From NCBI RefSeq assembly GCF_038446525.1, contig NZ_CP151792.1, forward strand, positions 1,116,001 to 1,180,000: DNA of 64,000 bases, written 5' to 3'. Below the pieces are notes generated by a model. That model saw only the letters and a list, made by a program, of their open reading frames with translations, was not told the origin of the DNA and made no database searches. Each line of letters starts with the position of its first letter. Within the stretch, counting starts at the first letter, position 1. Both the position numbers and the translations under genes were made by a program. Of this stretch, positions 3,532-30,094 are shown one piece after another. The DNA comes from Methanolobus sp. ZRKC5 (GTDB taxonomy: Archaea > Halobacteriota > Methanosarcinia > Methanosarcinales > Methanosarcinaceae).

Positions 3532-5991
3532 ATGACCACCGAAAGCAAACCACCAAAAATAATTGGAGACAAGTTGATACATCTGGGAGTAATAATACTT
3601 TCATTGCTTGTCTCTATCTACATTAGAACAATACCCAAAGCAGGCGTGTTTATCTCAGACACATTTGTACGTTTTGGAGGGAATGACCCTTGGTACCATT
3701 TAAGGAATGTCGAGTCAATAGTACAGAATTATCCAAACATGCTGTGGTTTGACGCTTATACTCAATATCCCAATGGTGGAAACCAGGTATTTGCTCCACT
3801 ATTTGACTATTTTCTCTCAACCGTAATATGGATAATCGGACTTGGCACTCCCAGTCAGGACTTGATTAATACATTGTGCGCTTATAATCCTGTCATTTTG
3901 GGTGCACTTGTCATTATCCCCACATACTTTTTCACAAAGAATATTTTTGGCAGTAGAGCAGCGCTATTAGCAGCATTTTTCATAGCAATAGCACCAGGAC
4001 AGTTCCTATCAAGGTCTATAATTGGATTCAACGATCACCACATTGCTGAAACGTTACTAACAACTATTATAGCAATGTTCATGGTAATAATGCTGAAAAA
4101 AGCAAGTGAACACGAAATAACGTTTGAAATGATCAAAAATAAGGATCTTTCTACCTTTAAAGTAGTACTGCCTTATATGTTGTTGACAGGGGTGGCACTT
4201 GGGGCATACTCACTTACATGGATTGGTGCTATATTCTTTAGCTTCGTGATCGGTGTCTATATAACCATACAATTTTGCATAGATCACATGCACAAAAGAT
4301 CCAATGATTATCTGGCAATCTCAGGAATGATAATCTTTGCTGTTGCACTTATAATGGTTTTAGCAACACCATATATAGGAAGTACAAAACCACTTGCAAT
4401 TAAAGGTCTGGTTGCCGGAATAATTGCATTCCCTGTCCTGAGTCTGATGTCAACGATGATGAACAAAAAAGCAATAAAAAAATCATATTATCCTCTTGCA
4501 ATTTCCATCTTTTTTGTAGTGGGAGTGGGAGTTGCTAAATTGGTATCTGAGTCTGCTTACGCCCTCATAACAAGTGTATTCAGTTTTTTCATGCGCACTG
4601 GTGGCGGACTTACCATTGCGGAAGCCTCCCCTCTTTTATCCATTGGAGGCCAATTCTCCTTCCAGCCAATCTGGTACAACTTCGGAGCAATGGGGTACAT
4701 TTCATTTATTGCACTGGCAATACTCACCTACAAAGCATTTACCCAGAAAAACACACCTGAAAACACGTTTCTTATTGTATGGACACTCATGATTATCTGG
4801 GCCATGCTCCAGCAGAACCGCTTCGCATACTACTATTCAGTCAATGCAGCAATACTCTGTGCATGGGTAAACATCAAAATTCTGAAACTTGCTGGATGGA
4901 AAAATCTGATGGATAGCATTAAATCAAAATCATTCAGCGCTAAAAACATAAAAGCTATGCACATACTTTCAGCTGCATTTATAATACTTGTTCTTGTATA
5001 CCCAAGCTACAGCCTGGCAATGCAGCAGACACAGGGAACCAGTGGCCCCAATGGTTACTGGATTGAGGCAACCACATGGCTCAGATACAACACTCCTGAT
5101 CCTGGACTTGATTACTATGAAAGCTACGAAATTCCTGCTGATGGTGAAAGTTACAAATACCCCGATGCAGCATACGGTGTAATGTCCTGGTGGGATTACG
5201 GACACTGGATAGAAGTCATAGGACATCGCATACCAAATGCTAATCCTTTCCAAAAGGGAATTGGCGGACGCACAAATAGTATCGATGAAGAGAACCTCCC
5301 AGGAGCCTCTACTTTCTTCACAGCTCCTTCTGAGGAAACTGCAACAGAAGTGCTTGAGGCCATACACCCTGATCCTGAGAAAGCAGGTGCACGTTACATT
5401 GTTTCAGATGTTGAAATGGCTACAGGAAAATTCTATGCTATGACTGCCTGGACACTGGACACTGACAACTACTACATACCAGTGCAAACTGATGTTGGCT
5501 ACCAGAATGTGCCTGGTCCAAGGTATTACGATTCAATGGAAGCAAGACTTCATATATTCGATGCTAGTGGACTAAAACAGTATCGTATGGTATATGAATC
5601 ACCTATTGGAAGCACACAGGAGCCAGGATATAAGAACGTCTACAATGTGCTCTATGGCGGGACATTGACCGAAGAAAACACAGGATATGTGAAGATATTC
5701 GAGTACGTTGAAGGTGCAACAATCACAGGAACAGCACCTGTTAATGAAACAGTAACAATCAGCAACAATATACTCACAAACCAGATGAGGACGTTTACTT
5801 ACACGCAGTCAACCACATCTGATGGCACATATTCTTTCACCGTACCTTATTCAACAACAGGCCCGATAGAAGGTGAAACACAATTTGATACTATGCCTGC
5901 AGGCCCTTATACAATAAGCTATGGAACTGTCACAGAACAAGTCAGCGTCAGTGAAACAGATGTCCTGAATGGGAACACGATAGAAGTGTGA
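3532..5991 (+). CDS. aglB: archaeal oligosaccharyltransferase AglB (STT3 family)
   Basis: AglB transfers a lipid-linked oligosaccharide to Asn in N-X-S/T sites of secreted proteins such as S-layer and archaellin, acting on the outer face of the membrane. The 819-residue protein has about a dozen hydrophobic segments in the first 500 residues. The acidic loop motif near GGNDPWYHLRN supplies metal ligands, TIAE (361-364) corresponds to the SVSE/TIXE loop, and the catalytic WWDYG is at 553-557. The last 85 residues look like a beta-sandwich outside the catalytic core. Neighbouring sugar-transfer genes upstream fit an agl-type cluster. Family assignment is secure; glycan composition is unknown. 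Confidence 0.95.
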   Translation: MTTESKPPKIIGDKLIHLGVIILSLLVSIYIRTIPKAGVFISDTFVRFGGNDPWYHLRNVESIVQNYPNMLWFDAYTQYPNGGNQVFAPLFDYFLSTVIWIIGLGTPSQDLINTLCAYNPVILGALVIIPTYFFTKNIFGSRAALLAAFFIAIAPGQFLSRSIIGFNDHHIAETLLTTIIAMFMVIMLKKASEHEITFEMIKNKDLSTFKVVLPYMLLTGVALGAYSLTWIGAIFFSFVIGVYITIQFCIDHMHKRSNDYLAISGMIIFAVALIMVLATPYIGSTKPLAIKGLVAGIIAFPVLSLMSTMMNKKAIKKSYYPLAISIFFVVGVGVAKLVSESAYALITSVFSFFMRTGGGLTIAEASPLLSIGGQFSFQPIWYNFGAMGYISFIALAILTYKAFTQKNTPENTFLIVWTLMIIWAMLQQNRFAYYYSVNAAILCAWVNIKILKLAGWKNLMDSIKSKSFSAKNIKAMHILSAAFIILVLVYPSYSLAMQQTQGTSGPNGYWIEATTWLRYNTPDPGLDYYESYEIPADGESYKYPDAAYGVMSWWDYGHWIEVIGHRIPNANPFQKGIGGRTNSIDEENLPGASTFFTAPSEETATEVLEAIHPDPEKAGARYIVSDVEMATGKFYAMTAWTLDTDNYYIPVQTDVGYQNVPGPRYYDSMEARLHIFDASGLKQYRMVYESPIGSTQEPGYKNVYNVLYGGTLTEENTGYVKIFEYVEGATITGTAPVNETVTISNNILTNQMRTFTYTQSTTSDGTYSFTVPYSTTGPIEGETQFDTMPAGPYTISYGTVTEQVSVSETDVLNGNTIEV

Positions 5992-23761: not shown

Positions 23762-25383
23762 GTAACTATTCAGCCTAGCTCACTTCCACCAAGCTGATTT
23801 CTTCATCCACGATCAATTCTGCAACTTTGGAACAAATGAATTGCCATAAAATATTGCACTAATTGCATCGATAACAGATTCAGAATTCTTATTAACAGTA
23901 GACACGTATCCTCTTATACGGCAGAAATTTTTTGCACCCTGTTTACTGCGGAAAGTACCTGATATCTTCTGCTGTACTTTCGTCATTCTGATCTCTCTTT
24001 CAGCCTGATTGTTATCAAACGGAACGTTTTGGTCGTACATAAATCGCAAGATATCCTCTTTATGGCCAATAAACCTATCCAGCAAATTCTTTACCGTGGT
24101 CTGCTTCTTACGTCCTCGTTTTTTAGACCGCACATTTGATTCCGGATCAGGAGGATTTTCATTCACTCCTAAACAAGTTATGTGATCATAATCCTCACTG
24201 AACCTTTGAATTAGCTCAGTATCTAAAAGATCATTATCAACATGATGTTTAATGCATATCAAGAGATCACTCATTATCTTTGTCCACTGTTGATCACTGT
24301 TTTCGGAAGCTCCAGTTAACTCTCGTAATAAATGTGCATTACATAATGAATGTTGACATTCATATTTGTTGTACGGTTTCCAAAAATCATGTGTTGCAAC
24401 ACCAGTGTAACCTGGTAATATGCCCATAGCATCCATTGCTTCTGAGCCCCTTTTACGATGTGCAAAATAATAGGTCAGTTTGTCTGTACCTGCCACATGA
24501 AGCCAATTACGAACTGCATTTATTCTCATTCCTGTTTCATCCAGATTGATGACAGGAGATTCTTTCAGGAGATGTTTCACTGTATTTTCAAAAGCTCCAA
24601 GCTTCTCAAAACAACTACGTTCCGTGTTCACCAAAGTAGCAGGACTTATCTTGCATCCCAAAATATCAGAGAACAACTTGGTAACACGCTGATAAGGAAG
24701 TAATTGGTAAGTGTGCAAATAAACTGCAAATGACTTAACTCGATGACCGTATTGAGTCGGCTGAGTTACACCATCTGGAAAAAGAGCTTTGTTTACATGA
24801 GAACATTTGGGACATGTTTTAATCTCGCAACGATGTTCAATGCAATTGATAGTTATAGGAGGAATGTCAAAGACCTGTCTTCTTTCATAGTCAGAGGGAA
24901 CAGAAGCTAACGATCTCCCACAATTGACGCATTGATTAACAGGATGAACAATAACTTCATCCGGATCATCATTTATTCTTAATGTAGTACCAGGATGACC
25001 GTTTTGACCACCTACATGCTTATTGGTCTTTTTTCTTTGACTTTTAACGGTTGGTTTATTCCGTGCATAAGAATCAGTAGAAGGTGGTTTGCTACTGTTG
25101 CGACTATTCTTTTCAAGCATTTCTTCCAAATGCCTGACACGCTCTTCAAGTTGTGCAATTTGGAGAGATTGATGTTCAATTATCCCAAGTAATCGAGTTA
25201 CAAGTTCTACTACTGCTTCTGGACCAGCTTCATAAACTGCAAGTATTTCTTCGCGGTCTATACAAATCCCCTCAGATTGATAGACGTTTTTTATGATATT
25301 TTACTGAATATTTTTTAACACATAGAATGAAGCCATAGTATATTGTTTTTTGCATCATTAAAACAGTTAGGCTGAATAGTTAC
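23762..25383 (-). mobile_element. intact IS66-family insertion sequence (1622 bp) with 8-bp target duplication
   Basis: The ends are inverted repeats: GTAACTATTCAGCCTA at 23762-23777 is repeated in reverse at 25368-25383 with no mismatch over 16 bp. The flanks are identical 8-bp direct repeats CAAATAAA at 23754-23761 and 25384-25391, the duplication size of IS66 elements. One transposase gene fills most of the element; the small accessory genes tnpA/tnpB of classical IS66 are absent. The perfect flanks indicate a recent insertion between surE and the small gene downstream of moaA. Confidence 0.93.
23813..25267 (-). CDS. IS66-family transposase, lacking a standard start codon
   Basis: The DDE transposase is visible from residue SKPPSTDS onward: a zinc-ribbon-like part (CVNCG then CPKC), catalytic LDETGMRI, THDFWKPY and the final Glu region NNQAEREIRM. 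Upstream of a TTG at 25129 the frame stays open and encodes a clear N-terminal coiled coil (CIDREEILAVYEAGPEAV then EHQSLQIAQLEERV). The codon where translation should begin is ATT (25265-25267), with no ATG, GTG or TTG further upstream before a stop. The start may have mutated from ATG, use ATT, or use the internal TTG and lose the coiled coil. Confidence 0.85.
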   Translation of the reverse strand: MCIDREEILAVYEAGPEAVVELVTRLLGIIEHQSLQIAQLEERVRHLEEMLEKNSRNSSKPPSTDSYARNKPTVKSQRKKTNKHVGGQNGHPGTTLRINDDPDEVIVHPVNQCVNCGRSLASVPSDYERRQVFDIPPITINCIEHRCEIKTCPKCSHVNKALFPDGVTQPTQYGHRVKSFAVYLHTYQLLPYQRVTKLFSDILGCKISPATLVNTERSCFEKLGAFENTVKHLLKESPVINLDETGMRINAVRNWLHVAGTDKLTYYFAHRKRGSEAMDAMGILPGYTGVATHDFWKPYNKYECQHSLCNAHLLRELTGASENSDQQWTKIMSDLLICIKHHVDNDLLDTELIQRFSEDYDHITCLGVNENPPDPESNVRSKKRGRKKQTTVKNLLDRFIGHKEDILRFMYDQNVPFDNNQAEREIRMTKVQQKISGTFRSKQGAKNFCRIRGYVSTVNKNSESVIDAISAIFYGNSFVPKLQN

Positions 25384-27918: not shown

Positions 27919-27928
27919 CTTTATATGC
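27919..27928 (+). promoter_or_regulatory. TATA-like box for a predicted RNA
   Basis: CTTTATATGC lies 27 bp after the cbiA/cfbB stop. Transcription would start near 27945, exactly where the stem-forming segment GTGCGTATTG begins. It supports an independent RNA or a long leader of the DUF167 gene. Confidence 0.45.
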
Positions 27929-27944
27929 GTCACGCGTTGTATTA

Positions 27945-28140
27945 AAAGTGCGTATTGTTAGGTCCTTGCATGAGAACATGGCAGAGCCTATCAGTGATTG
28001 TACAGACAACCTCAATACGCTACACTGGATAGTGCGATAAAGCCTGTCACGAGGGAAACTGGGATGGACAGCGGAAAATCCATAGGATGATATCCCGGAG
28101 TTAGTGCGTCAGACGACAGCATTATCCTATCCTCATTATC
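27945..28140 (+). ncRNA. predicted structured RNA upstream of DUF167 gene
   Basis: The spacer has long-range complementarity: GCGTATTG (27950-27957) with CAATACGC (28013-28020), extended inside by GGT with ACC. A second helix is GGATAG (28027-28032) with CTATCC (28127-28132). Inside it CCTGTC (28043-28048) pairs with GACA plus GG (28067-28074), enclosing GAGGGAAACTGGG. A TATA-like box is correctly placed upstream and a T-rich stretch (CTGTTTTAGG) follows. It could be a stand-alone RNA or a 5' leader. RNase P and SRP RNA consensus elements are not found. Confidence 0.5.
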
Positions 28141-28176: not shown

Positions 28177-28497
28177 ATGTCTTTTGAGGATGCATTGAAA
28201 AAGGTTGATGCAGGAGTAATTATTGATATTGAAGTTACCCCTGGATCAAAAAAACTTTGCGTTCCAAGCGGCTATAATCTATGGAGAAAACGCATAGAAG
28301 TGCGTTTGTCACAAAATGCCCAGAAAGGCAAGGCCAATGAACAGCTTGTAGCCAGCCTCGTGGATCTTTTCCAACTAAGGTCAGCTGATATTTCCATTGT
28401 TAATGGTATGCATAATTCTAAAAAATCTCTTCTTTTAGAGAATGTTGAGTATAACACTGTCATTAACATTCTTGAAAAAAAACTACCGCAGCACTAG
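28177..28497 (+). CDS. DUF167 (YggU-like) protein
   Basis: A 106-residue small alpha/beta protein of the DUF167/YggU family, known from structures but without an established function. The family pattern is clear: VTPGSKK near the N-terminus, then RLSQNAQKGKANEQLVASLVDLF and DISIVNGMHNSKKSLLLE. The stop is TAG; if read through, 22 more codons follow before TGA. It is preceded by the predicted structured RNA. Confidence 0.88.
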   Translation: MSFEDALKKVDAGVIIDIEVTPGSKKLCVPSGYNLWRKRIEVRLSQNAQKGKANEQLVASLVDLFQLRSADISIVNGMHNSKKSLLLENVEYNTVINILEKKLPQH

Positions 28498-28594
28498 GAT
28501 AGATCATCTGCCCAGATGATTAAACCAATACTTTCACCCTACTTGCCTTTGCTTAATATATGCATATGACAATCTAGTACCTGAGGTGAAATAC

Positions 28595-28675
28595 ATGGAT
28601 GAATATTTCGAAAACCTGGTAGAAAGAGCCAGTCATTATGAACAATTTGAAGAATTCGTTCGTTATTACAAGTGA
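28595..28675 (+). CDS. 26-residue microprotein or leader peptide
   Basis: The frame runs ATG to TGA with 26 codons and starts 4 bases after GAGGTGAA, one of the best ribosome-binding sites in the window. A TATA-like box lies at about 28551. The peptide is acidic and aromatic (begins MDEYFENL, ends EEFVRYYK). Its last codons form one arm of an inverted repeat, so translation could affect folding of the downstream hairpins. It may be a real small protein or a leader peptide. Confidence 0.5.
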   Translation: MDEYFENLVERASHYEQFEEFVRYYK

Positions 28676-28751
28676 ATATTATCTCCTTGCCGTAAAAGAT
28701 CCTCCGATCCCGAAAGTTTGCTTTTCATTACGGCAGGGCATTTACTTGTAA
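28666..28751 (+). repeat. nested inverted repeats after the 26-codon ORF
   Basis: An outer pair TTACAAGT (28666-28673) / ACTTGTAA (28744-28751) encloses an inner pair TGCCGTAA (28688-28695) / TTACGGCA (28728-28735). Both arms are perfect. In RNA this gives a two-part stem-loop overlapping the stop codon of the small ORF. It may act as a terminator, stabiliser or attenuator; no U-run follows directly. Confidence 0.6.
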
Positions 28752-28875
28752 ATAACGATTTTACTTATGCACATTTTTTAAAACATGTTACGCCATGGAT
28801 TCAAAGGTCAGTTTTTAATCGGATGAAAAGTAACTCTAAAATCAGTATTTTAAAAGAATAGCCACGGATATTTTC

Positions 28876-29343
28876 ATGCAAAGAAGAAACACAAATTCAA
28901 AAAAACCATTAAAAGCACCTTTTGTTGTTTATCAGAAAAGACTGAAAATGATCGAAGAACTATTGGATGAATTACAGGAACTTGCTATTCAAGAGTCAAT
29001 AATTGTGGTTGAAGGGAAAAGAGATATTGTTGCCCTTAAGACATTGGGTCTGAAGGGAGATTTCCGTCTTGCCACCCATCACTCACTTATCAACTTCTGC
29101 GAGGAATTGGCAGAAAGTGGTCAAAGAATAGTCATTCTTACTGACTGGGACAGAAGAGGAAATATACTGGCTTCAAAACTTGTAGAAAATCTCCAATCAT
29201 TGGATTCAAACCCAGAAACGAGGATAAGAGATTTGATTATCAGCCTGGTCCAGAAAGAGATAAAAGATGTTGAAAGTCTTCCAAGCTACGTTAGAAAACT
29301 AAAAGATATAACCAAAGCTACAGACGTTACGGATTCTTTTTAA
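28876..29343 (+). CDS. Toprim-domain protein (UPF0292-like)
   Basis: A 155-residue protein consisting of little more than a Toprim fold, the nucleotidyl-transfer/hydrolysis domain of DnaG primases and topoisomerases. Catalytic residues are visible: Glu in IIVVEGKRD and the DxD motif in ILTDWDRRG. Archaeal single-domain Toprim proteins of this length are known but uncharacterised. The IS1-family element inserted 11 bp after its stop. Confidence 0.82.
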   Translation: MQRRNTNSKKPLKAPFVVYQKRLKMIEELLDELQELAIQESIIVVEGKRDIVALKTLGLKGDFRLATHHSLINFCEELAESGQRIVILTDWDRRGNILASKLVENLQSLDSNPETRIRDLIISLVQKEIKDVESLPSYVRKLKDITKATDVTDSF

Positions 29344-29354
29344 GATAAATTTAT

Positions 29355-30094
29355 GGCATTGTTAATTAAACATAGCTAGTTCTTTATTCCTATATTTCAT
29401 TAAGAGCAAAACGGAGATTTTTAGCATTTCAAGACTTTTAGTATAACACTTTGACTTTCTCCTTAGTCTTGCCAGGAAATGCCTAAATATGCTGTTGTAT
29501 CCTTCAACAGTATATGTTTCTGCTTTTGATCGAGTATGGATGTTTCTGGGGACTAACTTGGCATATGCCCTCCAATAATCCGTCATTACTTCCCCAACCT
29601 CTTTTGTCTTTAACTTTTTCCAGAGTTTTTGTCCTGTTTTTGTTCCTCTGCTGCCAAAAGAGCAATCGATGAATTTCTTCCCATATCTATCAACAGCAAT
29701 CCATATCCAGCAGTAGTTTTTTTATTCCCAATATAAGTATGCATCTCGTCCAATTCCACAACAGAAATCTCATTTTCACTTTTTAGATCCTCTAATTCAC
29801 TACCAAATTTTCGAATCCATTTTTGAACAGAAACATGACTAACGCCCAAAAAACGTCCAATTGAACGAAATCCCAACCCCTCCAGATAGAGTTGTAAAGC
29901 CTGTCGCTTAACAGATACGGGGCTAGCGGTGGATTTTATATCTACTGAATAGTTGTATCCACAATCATGGCATTTGTAGCGTTGTCGACCATCAATCCTA
30001 CCGTTCTTCTTATGACTGGAACTCTTACACTTTGGACAATTCATATATAAAAAGAGGCCATCATATTATATAACGATGTTTAATTACCAAAGCC
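29355..30094 (-). mobile_element. intact IS1-family insertion sequence (740 bp) with 8-bp target duplication
   Basis: The element is bounded by imperfect inverted repeats of about 24 bp, both beginning GGC and sharing TAATTAAACAT (left 29355-29378, right 30071-30094; 20 of 24 positions agree). Direct repeats AAATTTAT flank it at 29347-29354 and 30095-30102. GG ends, 8-bp duplication, 740-bp length and an InsA/InsB-type frameshifted transposase all fit the IS1 family. The perfect flanks suggest recent movement. Confidence 0.93.
29362..30044 (-). CDS. IS1-family transposase made by predicted -1 frameshifting
   Basis: The 0 frame (from 30044) encodes an InsA-like part: zinc finger CPKCKSSSHKKNGRIDGRQRYKCHDCG, then an HTH (GFRSIGRFLGVSHVSVQKWI) and VVELDEMHTYIGNKK. 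It would stop at 29610. At 29716-29723 (read on the minus strand) is A7C, and slipping back one base continues as NYCWIWIAVDRYGKKFIDC and on through MTDYWRAYAK to 29362. That restores a complete DDE-type IS1 transposase of 227 residues. The -1 frame has a TAA just upstream of the slip site. E. coli IS1 uses the same A-rich -1 mechanism. Confidence 0.88.

Follow-up and report, generated by a model that had tools for sequence, protein, structure and literature searches.

The locus and its neighbors

The window, i.e., the whole 64,000-nt stretch of DNA analyzed here, comes from the chromosome of the methane-producing archaeon Methanolobus sp. ZRKC5 (genome 3.05 Mb). Comparison with relatives gives good support for a structured RNA gene in the gap between a cfbB-like gene (with CbiA and GATase_3 domains) and a DUF167 gene (PF02594). 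This gene would span about 178 nt, has a promoter-like site of its own, and is found at one place in the genome. The features of the locus are collected in Table 1; window positions equal RNA positions plus 27949. A conserved gap that carried no annotation thereby becomes a gene with named, testable targets.

Table 1. Features of the predicted guide RNA gene and its surroundings (window positions; counts refer to 63 loci).
Feature	Position	Strand	Remark
TATA-like box TTTATAT	27920..27926	+	box start 30 nt 5' of RNA start
Two-hairpin box H/ACA guide RNA (predicted)	27950..28127	+	predicted extent 178 nt, from sequence comparison
Hairpin 1 (HP1) with ACA box	27950..28024	+	lower stem 27950-27957/28013-28020 covaries
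HP1 pocket, 5' guide strand UAGGUC	27959..27964	+	complementary to 23S 3' of U2555 (also U2586)
Putative kink-turn 1, first strand GAG	27972..27974	+	G 62, A 63, G 55 of 63
Putative kink-turn 1, second strand (C, 3-nt bulge NRU, GA)	27992..27997	+	U46 G47 A48 invariant 63/63
HP1 pocket, 3' guide strand ACAACCUC	28006..28013	+	complementary to GAGGUUGU of 23S A-loop
ANA box 1 (ACA)	28022..28024	+	A73, A75 invariant 63/63
Clamp helix P4, 5' arm	28027..28035	+	pairs with 28119-28127
Hairpin 2 (HP2) with ACA box	28042..28118	+	lower stem covaries (helices 7 and 8, alignment A2)
HP2 pocket, 5' guide strand GAGGGAAA	28051..28058	+	GAGGG complementary to CCCUC of 23S helix 69
Putative kink-turn 2, first strand GAC	28067..28069	+	G118 60, A119 60, C 55 of 63
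Putative kink-turn 2, second strand (G, 3-nt bulge, GA)	28085..28090	+	U139 G140 A141 invariant 63/63
HP2 pocket, 3' guide strand AGUUA	28099..28103	+	GUU invariant 63/63; complementary to UAAC before U1915
ANA box 2 (ACA)	28116..28118	+	A167, A169 invariant 63/63
Clamp helix P4, 3' arm	28119..28127	+	pairs with 28027-28035
DUF167 (YggU) gene	28177..28497	+	Pfam PF02594; conserved neighbor, outside RNA

An earlier reading made from the letters of the window (hereafter the sequence-only reading) had pointed to a well-placed TATA-like box, and this box is present. A TATA-like match 28–33 nt 5' of the RNA start occurs in 29 of the 31 Methanosarcinaceae loci, L036 and L220 being the exceptions; please note that the motif list was drawn up after the sequences had been inspected. 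The DUF167 gene starts 50 nt 3' of the RNA. Of the 31 Methanosarcinaceae loci, 29 have such a gene on the strand of the RNA and no more than 250 nt 3' of it, as do 16 of 47 other loci; some loci have short flanks.

The gene order RNA, DUF167, Toprim-domain protein (PF01751; window 28177–29343 for the two genes) is common to many loci. At L198, L087, L194, L197, and L199, no more than 70 nt separate the RNA from a Toprim relative downstream of it, and DUF167 was not found in the available flanks. Transposase sequences are also seen in the window: an IS66-family transposase gene at 23813–25129 (minus strand) and, next to the Toprim gene, two adjoining reading frames at 29362–30044 (minus strand), one (29365–29586) with an IS1 transposase domain and the other (29613–30044) with a helix-turn-helix domain, perhaps together a single IS1-type element.

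Folding and covariation

From one sequence alone the case for a structured RNA is weak, since the fold of the locus is ordinary (z −0.40; 65 of 200 shuffles at least as stable); neither strand gave a signal when folded by itself. Two alignments were kept apart by how they were made: A1 contains 43 sequences that were not fitted to the model, with a structure of 47 pairs set by hand, and A2 contains 63 loci aligned by fitting to the covariance model and is thus biased towards it. In A1, standard pairs fill 93.0% of the pair cells versus 34–42% for slid controls; both-sided changes are found in 22 of the 47 pairs (shuffle mean 12.6; none of 500 shuffles reaches 22), with 141 both-sided-change cells where the shuffles average 38.1. 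The corresponding values for the model-fitted A2 are 92.3% of cells paired and both-sided changes in 41 of 47 pairs. The structured RNA proposed by the sequence-only reading, which had named covariance in relatives as a check, is borne out by this comparison, i.e., by conservation and by covariation on A1 over both shuffled and slid controls. One could argue from the plain single-sequence fold that the conservation is a matter of chance or an artefact of coding sequence; with covariation this far above the controls and one copy in nearly every matching genome across the phylum sample, we give that explanation a negligible probability and dropped it.

The 8-bp perfect helix seen earlier (GCGTATTG with CAATACGC) and a second long helix (GGATAGTGC with GCATTATCC, nine pairs, one of them G-U) are both there and correspond to the lower stem of hairpin 1 and the clamp helix, respectively; the GAGGGAA element is located at 28051–28057. 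What the sequence-only reading did not contain is the core, i.e., two pockets, two kink-turns, and two ACA boxes. It was right that the locus is neither RNase P nor SRP RNA: both RNAs are sited elsewhere in the genome, which rules out either assignment, and neither gave an Rfam match at the locus.

Anatomy of the two hairpins

HP1 occupies RNA positions 1–71 and is followed by U-ACA; HP2 occupies positions 93–165 and is followed by G-ACA. In each hairpin a pocket lies between the lower and the upper stem, and the sequence points to a kink-turn as well. Kink-turn 1 would be closed by the pair G25-C43 (GC in 55, UA in seven, and CG in one of the 63 loci of the model-fitted alignment), with a bulge at 44–46 and G-A pairs of 23/24 with 47/48; kink-turn 2 would comprise the pair C120-G136, a bulge at 137–139, and G-A pairs of 118/119 with 140/141. 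An ANA box thus stands after each hairpin, with all four A's kept in 63 of 63 loci, and a putative kink-turn lies in the upper stem of both.

According to PMC2584109, the pocket of an H/ACA RNA is complementary to rRNA flanking UN and lies 13–16 nt from the ANA box. Counted on the sequence, the spacing is 14 nt in HP1 (A59 to U72) and 16 nt in HP2 (G151 to G166), and both pockets are complementary to rRNA, HP1 well and HP2 with two unpaired middle bases in Methanolobus. Counted from the pocket up to the second G-A pair, the HP2 stem has 10 layers, inside the range of 8–11 given in PMC4652768. Please note that the pocket boundaries were chosen after the alignment had been inspected. The HP1 pocket strands were at one stage paired as GGU/ACC, a pairing that is kept in the model; there is no compensatory change between them among the 63 loci, so the strands are now read as guides. 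The last base of the 3' guide strand ACAACCUC doubles as a pairing base of the lower stem.

We are close to certain that the gene encodes a two-hairpin box H/ACA guide RNA whose pockets are directed to 23S rRNA. This identification draws on the conserved anatomy, the covariation, the homology to HgcG seen through relatives, the complementarity to rRNA, and the presence of Cbf5, Nop10, and L7Ae genes, which score above the cut-off in this genome (457.8, 72.9, and 166.2 bits, respectively). The gene would be transcribed into the guide RNA; L7Ae would bind the kink-turn of each hairpin, and Cbf5-Nop10-Gar1 the stem and the ACA box; the open pocket of each hairpin would pair with 23S rRNA on both flanks of one uridine, which Cbf5 would then convert to pseudouridine.

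With DUF167 following after 50 nt in the same orientation, and this order widely kept, the RNA might also be taken for a cis-acting, riboswitch-like leader of that gene. However, the RNA is kept without DUF167 found within 250 nt in 31 of the 47 loci outside Methanosarcinaceae (some with short flanks), its pockets match rRNA, and its anatomy is of the H/ACA type; on these grounds we consider a leader highly improbable and dropped it in favor of the guide RNA.

Predicted targets in 23S rRNA

Uridine positions are given in E. coli numbering. The 23S rRNA of this genome contains UAACUAUGACCCUC (helix 69), GAGGUUGUUCGCCUA (A-loop), and GGGUUUAGACC. A scan with the HP1 pocket and no preset site, made over 6 kb surrounding the 23S gene (1449 uridines), ranked U2555 first (11.5), followed by U2554 (9.5) and by U2586 together with two other sites (8.5 each). 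Of a panel of 24 genomes with 23S fragments, 22 have this A-loop; U2555 takes first place in 16 of these, sharing it with U2554 in two. HP1 is predicted from these scans to direct modification of U2555 in the A-loop and, less strongly, of U2586 next to the peptidyl-transferase center.

HP1 had first been assigned to U2586 only, an assignment we rejected since the scan without a preset site ranks the A-loop U2555 first. In its remaining form, this alternative holds that the RNA is an H/ACA RNA with HP1 serving U2586 only, the A-loop fit being a relic. It agrees with the proposal of the Haloferax HP1 as a candidate for Psi2621, which is E. coli U2586 (PMC2584109), and with the pairing of U2586 in Methanolobus, at rank 3 of 709 in the panel. 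The panel scores for Methanolobus speak against it, i.e., 12.5 for U2555 versus 8.5 for U2586, with pocket shuffles as good in 0 of 300 versus 12 of 300 cases. In the haloarchaeal-type guides of genomes G493, G344, G390, and G524, U2586 ranks 1, 1, 3, and 1 and U2555 falls to ranks 20–97 (G390 is tied to haloarchaea by 23S identity; the other three carry the label by pocket type). Unlike in Methanolobus, the A-loop fit is lost in these four, yet it is kept in 16 others. A U2586-only HP1 thus seems unlikely to us, and we prefer an HP1 directed to U2555 and, less strongly, to U2586.

The predicted target of HP2 is U1915 of helix 69, with U1917 as a possible second one. In 21 of the 24 panel genomes no uridine scores above U1915; the exceptions are G334, G314, and G028, in which it ranks 34, 16, and 4. 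The fit is less tight in Methanolobus, where the 5' guide strand is GAGGGAAA, which leaves the two middle bases unpaired with helix 69: U1915 scores 8 versus 11.5 in relatives with GAGGGUUA, and in the 6-kb scan of its own 23S region it is among the best six, tied with at least five other sites.

Relation to HgcG, Afu4, and Haloferax guides

Rfam gave nothing useful on the window: one scan was empty, there was no HgcG match even at E 10, and a loose scan returned, on the opposite strand, a single match to snoZ161 (18 bits, E 1). The HgcG model RF00064, run on the whole genome, found nothing at the locus and a place of 8.5 bits elsewhere only. Relatives give another picture at the homologous place. 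RF00064 scores over its cut-off at three of the 18 loci scanned, and these matches overlap the positions found by our covariance model (L205, 4001–4146; L211, 1542–1692; L223, 3313–3457); the other 15 were without a match at the threshold used. In a lenient scan of five loci, three matched below the cut-off (L194, E 4.3e-8; L198, E 7e-8; L192, E 1.6e-6) and L196 and L047 gave no match at the threshold used; L197 also matches below the cut-off (E 1.6e-7). The Rfam HgcG model thus misses the window copy together with those 15 loci.

The sequence-only reading had called the RNA novel and had suggested an Rfam search, naming a match to a known class as counting against novelty. Such a match has turned up, through relatives only; the window copy stays without one. 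A novel class, either a regulatory sRNA or a ribozyme and unrelated to known families, would suit this lack of a useful Rfam match in the window, the RNA's own promoter-like site, and the strong conservation. With ANA boxes, kink-turns, and rRNA-complementary pockets present, and with HgcG matches on relatives, we regard a new class as very improbable, and "novel" is not supported. As far as the searches show, the RNA is new to Methanolobus and of a known kind, built of two hairpins and a long clamp. On the comparisons made here it is homologous to HgcG/Pab40/Pf7 of Pyrococcus, Afu4 of Archaeoglobus, and Hvo1-Hvo2 of Haloferax. We take the Hvo1-Hvo2 RNA of Haloferax volcanii to be sR-h45.

Each of these relatives resembles the Methanolobus RNA in part. 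The Haloferax HP1 and HP2 are homologs of Pf7 stems II and III, and the Haloferax HP2 is a candidate for Psi1956/1958, i.e., E. coli 1915/1917 (PMC2584109); HP1 and HP2 described here would correspond to the same Pf7 stems by way of the Haloferax hairpins. In contrast to the three-hairpin Pf7, the Methanosarcinaceae RNA has a long P4 and is without hairpin I, the promoter-like site standing directly 5' of HP1. Hvo1-Hvo2 likewise has two hairpins, with HP2 for helix 69 and HP1 for U2586, but a long spacer separates them (PMC2584109). In Afu4 of Archaeoglobus fulgidus, Af4.2b is assigned to 23S L2601 and Af4.3 to L1970, which fit U2555 and U1915, whereas a further motif, Af4.1, with target S1167 in 16S (PMC4652768), has no counterpart that we found here. 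U1915 and U2555 lie 630 nt apart in the Methanolobus genome, and L1970 and L2601 lie 631 apart, which makes Af4.2 a fit for the equivalent of U2555. In the literature covered, which includes PMC2584109, PMC4652768, PMC6138745, and PMC7991803, we found no description of the RNA in Methanolobus or Methanosarcina; a supplement or another paper may list it.

The clamp helix and hairpin I

P4 is a helix of 9 bp (RNA positions 78–86/170–178) that encloses HP2 plus its ACA box. In A1, 28 of the 30 Methanosarcinaceae rows form at least seven of the nine pairs, compared with one to four in the 13 other rows, and both-sided changes occur within Methanosarcinaceae. Across the 63 loci, the homologous place carries a run of 7–11 bp in 13 of the 16 Methanosarcinaceae loci and in one of the 47 others. 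The Methanosarcinaceae exceptions are L033 and L220, with runs of 4–5 bp at chance level, and L049, with an 8-bp run of other sequence. The one case outside is L216, whose 7-bp run is equalled by 67 of 500 shuffles; elsewhere among the 47 the runs are of 1–6 bp. We had considered the clamp strictly absent outside Methanosarcinaceae, and this was dropped in view of these runs. The haloarchaeal-type loci (L207, L208, L209, L210, L215, L216, and L224) differ in having no clamp clearly above chance. The innermost one or two clamp pairs are spread more widely, e.g., GGUG/CACC in L051 and L052, which 117 and 95 of 500 shuffles equal. A long clamp helix is, by these comparisons, typical of Methanosarcinaceae, and it may serve in end protection or processing. 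We know of no described H/ACA RNA in which a clamp closes over a hairpin and its ACA box.

Reading of the sequences upstream of 28 loci (27 outside Methanosarcinaceae plus L220) gave a further hairpin just upstream in 21 of them, which, judged in this way, is the counterpart of HgcG hairpin I. In Methanosarcinaceae the TATA-like box stands where other loci have this hairpin (29 of 31). Of the 21 upstream hairpins, 18 were aligned. A hairpin-I model, searched down to E 1, had no match in the Methanolobus genome. Among 38 genomes, 20 have a match at this level: eight are strong, all of them training sequences, 11 genomes have matches at E 0.02–0.85 only, and one match is weak. The weak one (G036:C1:1036811-1036881; 26.7 bits, E 2.3e-4) is free-standing; it may represent a hairpin I that has moved to another site in this Methanosarcinaceae genome.

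It is conceivable, though we put it forward tentatively, that the guide was rebuilt in Methanosarcinaceae: hairpin I would have been dropped, a promoter gained at HP1, and a clamp of 7–11 bp closed over HP2 and its ACA box, with HP1 serving both U2555 and U2586, so that one RNA would modify helix 69, the A-loop, and the peptidyl-transferase center, and haloarchaea would have narrowed HP1 to U2586. The short or chance-level clamp pairing in some other lineages makes this somewhat less probable than we had held before. If it holds, the RNA would be a case of guide-RNA evolution that combines hairpin loss, target narrowing, and a longer clamp helix and bears on three functional centers of the ribosome. 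The additions to what is known of the family are its reach, the lack of HgcG hairpin I, and a clamp of 7–11 bp that covaries and is typical of Methanosarcinaceae.

Distribution among genomes

A DNA-level search matched 51 of 60 genomes, Methanolobus included, at one place each. The covariance model matched 217 of the 237 genomes of the class, and 147 of 150 among the good-quality ones; genomes used in training match by construction. Of the 58 genomes in families that contributed nothing to the training, 51 match (5 of 6, 1 of 2, and 45 of 50 in f4, f6, and f7, respectively). In the phylum sample, where the search filters drop weak matches, 213 of 392 genomes match, including 121 of the 298 outside the class.

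The 23S rRNA of G390, the genome of locus L207, is 99.7% identical to that of Natrialba magadii over 1779 bases, which places haloarchaea in the range of the RNA. At this locus about 2 kb separate the RNA (4001–4166) from the 23S-5S rRNA genes (1–2030), and the two are on opposite strands. Two matches are seen in a few genomes (G175, G222, G237, G332, and G515); G237 carries two diverged full-length copies (L193 and L212), each with a DUF167 gene after it.
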